Translations under genes and position numbers: made by a program
Part shown: positions 6,122 through 23,980 of the stretch, piece after piece
Numbering within the stretch: position 1 is the first letter of the stretch
Layout of the letters: every line of letters begins with the position of its first letter
Notes under the pieces: model-generated
What the model was told of the DNA's origin: nothing
What the model saw: the letters and a program-made list of their open reading frames with translations, nothing else
Database searches by the model: none
Assembly: GCF_000737325.1 (NCBI RefSeq)
Contig: NZ_CP011125.1
Span: forward strand, 2,046,001 to 2,110,000
Origin: Sandaracinus amylolyticus
Lineage (GTDB): Bacteria; Myxococcota_A; Polyangia; Polyangiales; Sandaracinaceae
Direction of reading: 5' to 3'
Length of the DNA: 64,000 nucleotides

Positions 6122-6610
6122 GTGGTCTACGAGTTCGAGCTCACCGACGAGGAGTTCCGCCGTGCGTGGCTCGCCGAGTACTTCCGGCGCCCCGCGCTCC
6201 CGATCCTGCGCGGGCTCGCGGGGCTCGTGCTCATCGGGCTCGGCATCCAGACGTCGCAGGGCGCGACCGAGCTGACCGCGCGCGGCATCGGGATGGCCGC
6301 GATCGTGCTCGGGATGTGGCAGCTGCTGCGGCCTTTCCTCCTGGTGCGCGCGCTGCTGCGAGCCCGGCGCGACAAGGGCGCGGCGTCGCAGCGGATGCGG
6401 GTCCGCATCGACGAGTCCGGGGTGGGGGTCTCGGACGGCGCGAAGGAGACGCAGCTCGACTGGGGCGCGATCACCGCGGCCGGGCGCGGGAAGGGCTACG
6501 TCTGGTTCGAGGTCCGCGGCTCGGCGCGAGGGACGATCCCGACCCGCGTGATCGACGACGACGCCGCGCTCGTCGAGGTGTTCACGCGCCACGGGACGTG
6601 GCGCGGCTGA
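6122..6610 (+). CDS. YcxB-like membrane protein
   Basis: A 162-residue protein if started at GTG 6122 (GAGGA lies upstream). An in-frame GTG at 6068 overlapping the HxlR stop is an alternative start that would couple the two genes. It begins YEFELTDEEFRRAWLAEYFRRP, then has two hydrophobic segments (residues about 27-45 and 55-75), then a cytoplasmic beta-rich domain with the phrase LDWGAITAAGRGKGYVWFEV, which is the pattern of YcxB-like C-terminal domains (strand-W-x-x-I plus pleckstrin-homology-like fold). Proteins of this type have no established biochemical role. The gene is immediately followed, 12 bp after its stop, by the palindromic tandem array. Confidence 0.7.
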   Translation: MVYEFELTDEEFRRAWLAEYFRRPALPILRGLAGLVLIGLGIQTSQGATELTARGIGMAAIVLGMWQLLRPFLLVRALLRARRDKGAASQRMRVRIDESGVGVSDGAKETQLDWGAITAAGRGKGYVWFEVRGSARGTIPTRVIDDDAALVEVFTRHGTWRG

Positions 6611-6622
6611 AGGTCGGGCCCC

Positions 6623-7346
6623 GATGGGTCGGACCCATCGTCGGCGAGCTCGAAGTCGACCTGGATGGGTCGGACCCATCGCCGGCGAGCTGGAAGTCGA
6701 CCTGGATGGGTCGGACCCATCGTCGGCGAGCTGGAAGTCGATCGGGAAGGGTCGGACCCATCGCCGGCGAGCTGGAAGTCGACCTGGATGGGTCGGACCC
6801 ATCGGCGGCGAGCTGGAAGTCGACCTTGGATGGGTCGGACCCATCGTCGGCGAGCTGGAAGTCGACCTTGGATGGGTCGGACCCATCGCCGGCGAGCTGG
6901 AAGTCGACCGGGATGGGTCGGACCCATCGGCGGCGAGTTGGAAGTCGACCTTGGATGGGTCGGACCCATCGGCGGCGAGCTGGAAGTCGACCTTGGATGG
7001 GTCGGACCCATCGTCGGCGAGCTGGAAGTCGACCTTGGATGGGTCGGACCCATCGTCGGCGAGCTGGAAGTCGACCTTGGATGGGTCGGACCCATCGGCG
7101 ATGGAGTTTGAAGTCGATCTTGGATGGGTCGGACCCATCGGCGATGGAGTTTGAAGTCGACCTCGATGGGTCGGACCCATCGCTCGGCGAGCTTGAAGTC
7201 GACCTTGGATGGGTCGGACCCATCGCCGGCGAGCTTGAAGTCGACCTCGATGGGTCGGACCCATCGCTGGCGACTTCGAAGGCGATCCGGATGGGTCGGA
7301 CCCATCGCCGGCGAGTTGGAAGTCGATCGGGAGGGTCGGACCCATC
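6623..7346. repeat. 18-copy tandem array of a 41-43 bp unit with a 17-bp palindrome
   Basis: The palindrome GATGGGTCGGACCCATC recurs with starts at 6623, 6664, 6705, 6746, 6787, 6829, 6871, 6912, 6954, 6996, 7038, 7080, 7123, 7165, 7208, 7249, 7290 and 7331. Period is 41-43 bp. The linker is also conserved (CGGCGAGCTGGAAGTCGACC with GTCGAC as a second small palindrome). Central units are nearly identical. Copies 4 and 18 carry a damaged left arm (GAAGGGTC and GAGGGTC) while the right arm stays intact. The period is not a multiple of three and varies, so both strands stay open without a stable protein repeat; it is treated as non-coding. It begins 12 bp after the YcxB-like stop. Confidence 0.95.
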
Positions 7347-7384: not shown

Positions 7385-7408
7385 CGCCGCCATCCGTCCT
7401 GTGCGTCA

Positions 7409-7498
7409 GTTCAGTGGTGGCCCCCGCGTCGGGAGCAGGCCTGAACGGAGCGCGGGGCCTGCCATCACCCCGCCTCCGTTCAGGGCCCAACACTGAAC
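7409..7498. repeat. Nested inverted repeats upstream of a small unknown gene
   Basis: Outer arms GTTCAGTG (7409-7416) and CACTGAAC (7491-7498) enclose inner arms CCTGAACGGAG (7440-7450) and CTCCGTTCAGG (7474-7484), which continue as GCGGGG (7452-7457) and CCCCGC (7468-7473). The inner element is a 17-bp stem with one bulged base and a 10-nt loop. The motif TGAAC/GTTCA occurs in both outer and inner arms. It lies 63 bp upstream of the gene at 7561 and could be an RNA structure, a cruciform or a remnant of a miniature mobile element. Confidence 0.7.
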
Positions 7499-7560
7499 GA
7501 ACCACCGGTGTCGGCCCGTCGACGGGTCGTCATCGGGGGTGTCGGGAGACGGCGAGCCCC

Positions 7561-8088
7561 ATGTCCAGCACCGCGCGCAAGATCGAGATCCAGCACGATT
7601 CCGCAGAGTTGCAGCAGCCGACGCGGGTCCGTCGGGCGCGTCGGGCGGCGAAGCTGCTCCGGATCGAGCGTCCGCGCCTCGGCGAGGAGCGGGTGTGGGA
7701 GACGGAGGTGCGGAGCCTTCCTGCCCACATGCTCGCGTCCCTCCCGCTGCCGCCCACGCTGCGCCTCGAGGTGCCCGGTCACGACGGGATCGTCTCGGTC
7801 GCGACGTCGCCCGAGGTGGTCCAGAGTGAGCGCGAGTCGGGCACCGTCGTCTTCGACGCGGCGGAGTGGAGCGCGCTGGTGACCGGGGCGGAGTCGGACC
7901 GCGTGTTCCCGGCCGAGCTCCGCGACTTCTGCGCCCGCAAGGCGAAGCAGCCGCGGTGGTCGCTCGACCTCGACGTGGCGCTGTCCGGCGCGCGCGCCTC
8001 GGCCCCGGTGGGCTGGACGGTGGGCGCGGTGCTCGACCGCCTCGGGGTGCGGCTGGTCGCGGCCGAGGCTGGAGGTGCGGAGAGTTGA
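7561..8088 (+). CDS. Small protein of unknown function
   Basis: A 175-residue protein starting at ATG 7561 with no strong ribosome binding site. It has a polar, basic N-terminus (TRVRRARRAAKLLRIERPRL) and then a beta-rich mid part (LRLEVPGHDGIVSVATSP) and a short amphipathic C-terminus. No signal peptide, membrane segment or catalytic motif is visible and I do not recognise a family. Codon usage (G/C in third positions, protein-like composition) and the lack of a competing frame support it as a real gene. It ends 12 bp from the stop of the convergent sthA and is preceded by the nested inverted repeat. Confidence 0.6.
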   Translation: MSSTARKIEIQHDSAELQQPTRVRRARRAAKLLRIERPRLGEERVWETEVRSLPAHMLASLPLPPTLRLEVPGHDGIVSVATSPEVVQSERESGTVVFDAAEWSALVTGAESDRVFPAELRDFCARKAKQPRWSLDLDVALSGARASAPVGWTVGAVLDRLGVRLVAAEAGGAES

Positions 8089-22427: not shown

Positions 22428-23111
22428 ATGCAGATCCCCACGTCCGATCTCTCGTCGTCCATCCTCCTCGCGCTCGGGCGCTGGCACCTCGCCGCGCTCG
22501 CCGTCCGGCCCGAGCACGCGGATCTCCTCGCGGCGTTCCAGCCGATGCACGACCAGCTCTCCGCGCGCCTCGCCGCGCGCGACGCCGCCGACGCGTCGGC
22601 GGTGCAGCCACGCGTGCTCGTGCGTTTCACCGAGATCGACCTCGAGCGCGAGATCCGCGCGCTCGCGGCCGGCGCCAACGCGCTCGACGGCAAGCGCGGC
22701 GGCCCGGTGTTCGGCGCGCTCTTCCCGAACGGCCTCGACGCCGAGGTGCGCACGCGCGGCCAGGGCCAGCTCGACGCCGCGACGCGCGTGCTCAACCGGC
22801 TGAGCGCGACCACCAGCGCCGCGCCCCTGCGCGTCGAGCACACGCCCCGGCTCACGGCTGCGAAGGACGCGTTCGCCGCGGCGCTCACCGCGCGCCAGCG
22901 GGCGGCGGAGACGGCGGGCAGCGCGTTCGGCCTCGAGCTCGCGGCGCGCGAGGACTTCTGCCGCGCGTACGACGCCAGCGCCGGCGCCCTTCGCCAGCGC
23001 TACCCGAAGGACCGCGACCAGCAGGACCTGTTCTTCGACACGTTCCGCAGCAGCGGCCGGAGCACGGCGGAGGACGAGGGCGGCGACCCGGCGTCCCCGC
23101 CGGCGACCTGA
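22428..23111 (+). CDS. Protein of unknown function
   Basis: 227 residues from ATG 22428. Mostly helical, with an ordered N-terminal segment (PTSDLSSSILLALGRWHLAA), a middle part rich in Ala/Arg/Glu helices (LVRFTEIDLEREIRALAAGA), and a long helical hairpin (AAKDAFAAALTARQRAAETA) containing FGLELAAREDFCRAYDASAG. The end is polar and disordered (STAEDEGGDPASPPAT). No signal peptide or membrane segment. No family recognised. It is divergent from the ECF operon (131-bp gap) and is followed 36 bp after its stop by the first palindromic array of the 23-kb intergenic region. Confidence 0.65.
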   Translation: MQIPTSDLSSSILLALGRWHLAALAVRPEHADLLAAFQPMHDQLSARLAARDAADASAVQPRVLVRFTEIDLEREIRALAAGANALDGKRGGPVFGALFPNGLDAEVRTRGQGQLDAATRVLNRLSATTSAAPLRVEHTPRLTAAKDAFAAALTARQRAAETAGSAFGLELAAREDFCRAYDASAGALRQRYPKDRDQQDLFFDTFRSSGRSTAEDEGGDPASPPAT

Positions 23112-23146
23112 GCGCGTCGACCCGTCGTGGCGCCGGCCCGCGGGGC

Positions 23147-23380
23147 GATCCGCACTGTGCGGATCGGGGGTGGAGCCGGCCCGAGGCGCGATCCCCAGTG
23201 TGGGGATCGGGGGTAGAGCCGGCCCGAGGCACGATCCGCAGCGTGGGGATCGGGGGTGGAGCGGACGCCATGGGCGATCCTCAGTGTGGGGATCGGGGGT
23301 GGAGCCGGCGCGACCCCCGATCCTCGGTGTGGGGATCGGGGGTGGAGCCGGCGCGACCCCCGATCGTCACAGTGAAGATC
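23147..23380. repeat. Six-copy, 43-bp-period array of 19-bp hairpins with compensatory changes
   Basis: Hairpin elements start at 23147, 23190, 23233, 23276, 23319 and 23362, exactly 43 bp apart. Copy 1 is GATCCGCACTGTGCGGATC and copy 2 is GATCCCCAGTGTGGGGATC: both are perfect stems although the arm bases differ, so paired positions changed together. Copies 4 and 5 keep pairing through a G-T wobble. Copy 6 (GATCGTCACAGTGAAGATC) has a different stem with one mismatch. The linkers (GGGGGTGGAGCCGG core) are similar. Between copies 4-5 and 5-6 a second, overlapping stem exists, GATCGGGGGT against ACCCCCGATC. The region lies between convergent genes and is non-coding. Confidence 0.92.
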
Positions 23381-23592
23381 GGCGTGTGGGCGCGCTCTAC
23401 CCCGACCCGACGACCCGCGACCGCCGCGCGCGTCCAGGACCCGCCCGCGCGCTCGTGATCCCGGCGAAAGCACCGAGCATTTCGCGCCATCGCCCGCACC
23501 GCGCATCGCGCGTCCCGCCCGGCCACGACCCTCCGAAACGTCACCGTACACGGAGGTCCCCGCTCCACCCCCGTCGCCGCCCCGCGCTAACG

Positions 23593-23894
23593 CGCGTGCC
23601 GTCGCCTCCGCTCTCCCGACCGTCGCCGTCCCGCGCTCCGCGCGTGCCGTCGCCTCCGCTCTCCCGACCGTCGCCGTCCCGCGCTCCGCGCGTGCCGTCG
23701 CCTCCGCTCTCCCGACCGTCGCCGTCCCGCGCTCCGCGCGCGCCGTCGCCTCCGCTCTCCGGACCGTCGCCGTCCCGCGCTCCACGCGTGCCGTCGCCTC
23801 GGCTCTCCCGACCGTCGCCGTCCCGCGCTCCGCGCGTGCCGTCGCCTCCGCTCTCCGGACCGTCGCCGTCCCGCGCTCCGCGCGTGCCGTCGCC
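23593..23894. repeat. 48-bp direct tandem repeat, six copies plus a partial
   Basis: Units begin at 23593, 23641, 23689, 23737, 23785, 23833 and (partial) 23881, with the core CGCGTGCCGTCGCCTCCGCT and then TCCCGACCGTCGCCGTCCCG. Copies differ at only a few positions (for example CTCTCC-G versus CTCTCCCG junctions). Because 48 is a multiple of three, open frames repeat a 16-residue motif on both strands: a Pro/Ser/Arg-rich one on the plus strand and an Ala/Thr/Arg/Glu-rich one on the minus strand. Neither has a convincing start or flanking domain, so it is annotated as repeat DNA. Confidence 0.9.
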
Positions 23895-23980
23895 ACCGCG
23901 ATCGAGAGGCAGCCCGCGAGCACTCAGGCCGCCAGACCCACCCCCTCCCGCCTCACGCCGAAGCGCCTCATGCCGAGCCC

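Follow-up and report, generated by a model that had tools for sequence, protein, structure and literature searches.

The closest known counterpart of the locus analyzed here is the sopABC partition system of the F plasmid, whose centromere, sopC, repeats a 43-bp unit twelve times; every unit contains a 16-bp inverted repeat to which SopB dimers bind (PMC9178275). In type II and type III plasmid partition systems (parC-parM-parR and tubC-tubZ-tubR), repeats lie upstream of an operon coding for an adaptor and an NTPase (PMC9178275). The system reported here shares with sopABC a unit of 42-43 bp in which there is one strong palindrome, the head-to-tail succession of many units, and an array that adjoins the gene for the putative binding protein and in many cases an ATPase gene as well. 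It differs in that its arrays are chromosomal, are divided in each genome among several classes of palindrome that all have distant arrays, have a second palindrome at half the period, and are accompanied by a HerA/DUF87-like ATPase, with no ParA-type or ParB-type protein recognized. With the type II/III systems it has in common this layout of a repeat array ahead of the genes for an adaptor and an NTPase; however, the repeat length and the NTPase are different, and here the array is not on a plasmid. The REP/BIME elements with their REP-associated tyrosine transposases (RAYTs) are likewise intergenic palindromes, often placed between genes, but here we see few arrays, not hundreds of dispersed copies, and these are linked to unrelated genes. 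The associated ATPase resembles the HerA-like and FtsK-HerA DNA translocases in matching HerA_C and DUF87, yet what accompanies it at the loci read is a palindrome array and an as yet unnamed adaptor rather than NurA or known partners from defence systems. The open-access literature that we searched contains no published description of such a system; our results point to a hitherto undescribed multi-copy system of DNA sites and proteins that resembles plasmid centromeres.

The array lies in a 64-kb window, the whole stretch of DNA analyzed here, taken from the genome of a soil myxobacterium, 10,327,335 bp in a single contig (hereafter G000). A first-pass annotation had reported 18 copies built on a 17-bp palindrome, and this number stands (Table 1): in a motif scan of the 64-kb window, GATGGGTCGGACCCATC is exact in 16 of the 18 units, and the remaining two, copies 4 and 18, for which loss of the left-arm pattern had been claimed, have one and two mismatches, respectively, all in that arm. 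This palindrome (P1) has an 8+1+8 geometry with a single central base; its matches in the window number 36 on both strands against 0.22 expected from dinucleotide shuffles, and the array attains a TRF score of 1071-1117. The step between units averages 41.6 bp, i.e., 3.96 helical turns, in agreement with the earlier estimate of nearly four turns, but the steps span 40-43 bp (the last being 40 bp) rather than 41-43. Similarly, the proposal that all sites face the same side of the helix is accurate locally, with neighbouring units in phase to ~1 bp, but fails for the array as a whole, over which the phase drifts by ~7 bp or two thirds of a turn. Across 30 units compared from 17 arrays in four genomes, the core GGGTCGGACCC is invariant in nearly all, and the outer pair 3/15 of P1 is either A-T or T-A. 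Between successive copies of P1, the linker has another palindrome (P2), A/T-rich and weaker than P1, whose best centre is often 12-13 bases past P1; 68% of its pair cells are paired, five of its seven pairs show changes on both sides, and its letters vary between units while the pairing tends to persist. The array starts 12 bp past the stop codon of the upstream gene, which is also its orthologous neighbour in the sister species. As previously noted, it is not coding in any stable frame, since units of 40, 41 and 43 bp shift the frame. No Rfam 15 family matches it at or above the gathering score, and the linkers are themselves repeated rather than being the unique spacers of a CRISPR.

Table 1. 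Features of the 64-kb window and their coordinates, counted from its first base.
Feature	Position	Strand	Remarks
Gene upstream of array	6122..6610	+	162-aa membrane protein, weak bacterial PH (YcxB-like) match
Tandem array	6623..7346	+	18 units of 40-43 bp; distant array of GGGTCGGACCC class
P1 palindrome GATGGGTC-G-GACCCATC	6623..6639	.	first of 18
P1 starts, copies 2-10	6664, 6705, 6746, 6787, 6829, 6871, 6912, 6954, 6996		left-arm mismatch at 6746
P1 starts, copies 11-18	7038, 7080, 7123, 7165, 7208, 7249, 7290, 7330		left-arm mismatches at 7330
P2 palindrome, example	6645..6658	.	one per linker; centre ~21 bp from P1
Gene downstream of array	7561..8088	+	175 aa, no assigned function; conserved neighbour in the sister species (G001)
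P0008	22428..23111	+	227-aa protein of second unnamed family
Second palindrome array	23127..23382	+	43-bp units with CGATCCNCANTGTGNGGATCG; 16 bp past P0008 stop

With up to two mismatches allowed, GATGGGTCGGACCCATC has 51 forward and 50 reverse matches in G000, against none for the reversed-pattern control. All the matches listed fall within four arrays, at 2.05, 3.33, 5.81 and 8.15 Mb, and there are no solitary copies among them. A sister species (G001) has three arrays, each bordered by the same genes as one of the four in G000; at the window's locus it has 8 units as against 18 in G000. The array is neither a degenerate remnant of random length nor traversed by a protein frame, the two outcomes that would have refuted the first-pass annotation. 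An uncultured Sandaracinus representing a third species (G002) has about nine arrays of this class, in most of which the arms ATGGG/CCCAT are changed to AAGGG/CCCTT. Within the family's genomes, arrays of the GGGTCGGACCC class are present in G000, G001, G002 and G004. The linkers are homogenized within each array and divergent between arrays, and the simplest explanation for a shared motif amid divergent linkers would be a common trans-acting reader of the palindrome. The arrays occupy convergent, tandem and divergent gene gaps. Seven of the ten distant arrays with both neighbours known lie between convergent genes, a configuration that accounts for 14% of gaps in the background (p = 1e-4); hence, the distant arrays are unlikely to be promoters or promoter operators.

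The array at 8.148 Mb sits 122 bp upstream of the gene for P0001, a protein of 288 aa in G000 belonging to an unnamed family, and is the gene-linked array of the GGGTCGGACCC class. An array with the same core palindrome is also found upstream of a P0001-like gene in G001 and G002, the G002 protein being only 42% identical to P0001, and in all three genomes the gene that follows codes for a HerA/DUF87-like ATPase, the partner P0002 having HerA_C and DUF87 matches above the Pfam cut-offs; at some P0001-type modules the ATPase gene is absent. In the family's genomes, P0001 relatives occur in G000, G001, G002 and G004, with a partial one in G005. In G004, the closest relative is accompanied by a degenerate array of 42 bp that contains a single GGGTCCGACCC, a core present at just one of the ten G004 family loci. 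Searches of Pfam, NCBIfam and PDB sequences recognized no DNA-binding domain in P0001 or P0008 (the second protein family described below), and the array-linked proteins had no significant match in these collections, including none to the ParB/SopB family. P0001 is also acidic (pI 5.2), unlike many DNA-binding proteins; in light of this and the lack of a recognized domain, its binding to DNA may require a partner. AlphaFold models made without an alignment were unusable (pLDDT 46 and 41), and tblastn found no match to P0001 in plasmid and phage collections or viral contigs. In the P0001 family alignment (A1), most sequences finish with a Pro-rich tail, often acidic, that has a conserved PF tip; this tail recalls the C-terminal peptide of SSB and may serve to dock a partner.

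The core motif has a wider distribution than the genes. Among 14 further genomes in which GGGTCGGACCC pairs occur, 11 gave no P0001 relative by the A1 profile; thus, the core motif alone is no marker of the system. Several matches from the genome-wide scan proved unrelated, e.g., L103, where the repeat looks protein-coding. Separately, CGGGTCSGACCCG arrays, mostly of 42 bp and in both orientations, were observed in the bins 3_bin.88 and 2_bin.46 (L060, L082, L083 and L114), genomes in which profile searches detected neither Y1_Tnp nor a P0001 relative. In Hymenobacter daecheongensis (L097 and L111), repeats containing GGGTCSGACCC have periods of 21 and 42 bp, and there is a Y1_Tnp elsewhere in the genome.

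At the paralogue loci read, nearly every P0001-like gene adjoins its own array of 40-43 bp units, each with a different palindrome. Under a fixed linkage criterion (TRF score of at least 100, period of 40-44, within 700 bp of the gene), 21 of 24 P0001-like discovery genes have an array as against 8 of 242 control genes, all of them gene calls from randomly chosen parts of G000 (Fisher p = 1e-21); in 19 of these 21 the array lies upstream of the gene. The family profile finds members in 38 of 379 Myxococcota genomes, with few genomes covered beyond this phylum. In a held-out set of relatives outside the discovery set, drawn from across Myxococcota and including three further genomes, 18 of 38 loci (17 of 37 once a duplicate is discounted) have an array, either upstream or downstream of the gene (Fisher p = 1.5e-11); about half of these relatives have no TRF-detectable array, some of them showing a 41-42-bp periodicity by autocorrelation. 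Genes in the fetched loci were called by a simple composition-based caller. Around family genes, the distribution of array periods has its maximum at 41-43, which takes in 40 of the 49 arrays. Individual paralogues have distant arrays of their own: the palindrome GAATCTCSGAGATTC of the paralogue at 8.905 Mb is found in exactly five arrays, one of them at its own gene (33 copies in G000, control 0), and GGGTSTCAGCGACCC of the paralogue at 1.046 Mb recurs in arrays at 2.308, 4.830 and 5.301 Mb in addition to that at its own gene, a pattern that also gives background matches when two mismatches are allowed. The P0001-like proteins average 41% identity between loci as against 72% for the adjacent ATPases, with the same direction in 55 of 55 pairs, as would be expected of a specificity factor working with a common motor. 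On the protein tree, the carriers of GGGTCSGACCC need two label changes, a number as low as which was reached in 5 of 500 label shuffles; this fits GGGTCSGACCC being the ancestral palindrome, later replaced in duplicated paralogues. A 464-kb sample of G000, window included, has at least seven arrays of period 38-46, several of them assignable to a class; by rough extrapolation from this small sample, the whole chromosome may hold over a hundred.

The P0008 family is likewise linked to arrays: 10 of the 13 members found in G000 and G001 have a 41-43-bp array (p = 4e-11). Therefore, the window contains a complete second module, at 22428-23382. Its palindrome CGATCCNCANTGTGNGGATCG is also present at 4.973 and 5.911 Mb, and a variant of it lies at 9.104 Mb. 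We considered the divergent G000 homologue at 6.391 Mb as the owner of CGATCCNCANTGTGNGGATCG and rejected it as its own array has another sequence; the adjacent P0008 is the better candidate. The two families may be remote relatives, the profile comparison by hhalign giving an E-value of 0.0034 but a probability of 9.5%. Directly after the P0008-linked array lies a third tandem array, at 23571-23899, with 6.8 copies of a 48-bp unit at 95% identity; in G001 (L313), a similar array of 44-52 bp precedes a P0008 paralogue.

Briefly, we advance the following mechanism, in which protein binding, cooperativity, tethering or segregation and the role of the ATPase are all read from sequence. The array of the window would be one of four chromosomal DNA sites read by the gene module to which their class is linked, and on balance we think it probable that these sites are centromere- or tether-like. 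The P0001-family protein would recognize the arrays of its own class, either directly or via a partner, often joined by the HerA/DUF87-like ATPase as a motor. The array at the module's own gene would probably also control the expression of that gene, and the further arrays of each module would lie elsewhere, mostly in convergent gaps. The period of ~42 bp, being four helical turns, together with the second palindrome at half period, might align protein dimers cooperatively; these could then build a nucleoprotein complex of the kind formed on sopC in the F plasmid, and this complex would tether, pair or move the array loci with the ATPase as motor. Several such modules would operate per genome, each with a different palindrome. 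We prefer the centromere- or tether-like reading because of the placement of distant arrays in convergent gaps, the divergence contrast between the P0001-like proteins and the ATPases, the tree pointing to an ancestral palindrome, and the sopC-like unit. Like type Ia partition loci, the system does have repeats of ~43 bp in tandem, every one containing an inverted repeat; however, Pfam, NCBIfam and PDB searches found no ParB/SopB-family protein beside the array, and the partner is HerA/DUF87-like rather than a ParA-type Walker ATPase. Hence, while the system would be partition-locus-like in its working, we do not class it as a partition locus.

The first-pass annotation had left three options, a multi-site protein-binding array, an RNA hairpin string expressed from the YcxB-side promoter, and an expanding satellite, of which the first is best supported, as suggested by the confinement of the palindrome to four arrays, one of them gene-linked, and by relatives with arrays of their own. 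Such an array might also consist of the operators of ordinary transcription regulators, with each P0001 paralogue repressing its own gene and a small regulon from multiple sites. The upstream position of most gene-linked arrays and the class-specificity of the palindromes would suit such operators, but the distant arrays are mainly in convergent gaps, often tens of bases from stop codons, the number of sites (up to 18 per array) is far beyond what an operator needs, and the domain searches found no regulator domain; we regard this version as unlikely. The hairpin string, taken as a bidirectional terminator or an mRNA 3' protector, draws on a strong predicted RNA fold on both strands (z of -8.9 and -12.2), the many arrays that follow stop codons in convergent gaps, and the both-sided changes in P1 and P2. 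Yet any palindrome array folds well, a terminator has no need of a class-specific palindrome linked to its cognate gene family, no Rfam family fits, and the arrays also occupy tandem and divergent gaps and sites upstream of genes, which speaks against a string expressed from the YcxB-side promoter; the hairpin reading is most unlikely in our estimate.

The satellite option is apt in part, in that the copy number at the same locus differs between species and the units are homogenized within arrays, as would result from neutral expansion by slippage or unequal exchange at palindromes. It leaves unexplained why arrays megabases apart have a common palindrome while their linkers diverge, why two gene families are linked to such arrays, and why the palindrome changed jointly in most arrays of the third species; hence, neutral expansion has in our view a very slight probability. 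An origin as REP/BIME-like repeats left by a RAYT, the probability of which we place slightly lower again, was suggested by GGGTCNGACCC pairs in many phyla, and the GGGTCNGACCC hairpin does stand on both sides of Y1_Tnp genes in two other bacteria. However, Y1_Tnp was found in none of the three genus genomes, as against five positives among 14 control genomes, and this origin was therefore rejected for the genus; moreover, instead of dispersed single or paired copies, the matches listed in G000 form strict head-to-tail arrays, and the Y1_Tnp loci examined in the sister genus are without the motif. In the two other bacteria, the SZAS-71 MAG (L155) and Alcaligenaceae CAII-53 (L156), GGGTCNGACCC around Y1_Tnp forms a REP/RAYT-like layout sharing the core of the window palindrome, and there the REP/RAYT reading is supported.

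Returning to the centromere- or tether-like reading, we tentatively extend it to Myxococcota at large, as a possibility on which we would not yet count: their chromosomes would carry mutually distinct sets that hold or move chosen loci, each set combining a rapidly evolving protein that confers specificity, in many cases a HerA-like motor, a 42-bp array of its own and, at a distance, several more arrays of the same palindrome, with gene duplication followed by palindrome change yielding new sets that do not cross-react. If the centromere- or tether-like reading is right, the sites and their partner proteins would form a class not described before on chromosomes, in several independent copies per genome, and could account for a large number of tandem repeats left without annotation in myxobacteria and for two of their unnamed protein families. 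They could also offer natural non-cross-reacting protein/array pairs, usable for labelling or tethering DNA, and a handle on the folding or segregation of very large bacterial chromosomes.

Two minor features of the window may be recorded. On the minus strand, 48091-48158 matches Rfam EBv-sisRNA-2 barely above the gathering score; the sequence there is repetitive and GC-rich, and the match is probably due to chance. Between the 18-unit array and the next gene, at 7405-7500, four TGAAC/GTTCA motifs form two nested inverted repeats in the order GTTCAGT ... CTGAACGGAG ... CTCCGTTCAG ... ACTGAAC; this region looks like an operator region, and its inverted repeats are largely kept in the sister species (L032).
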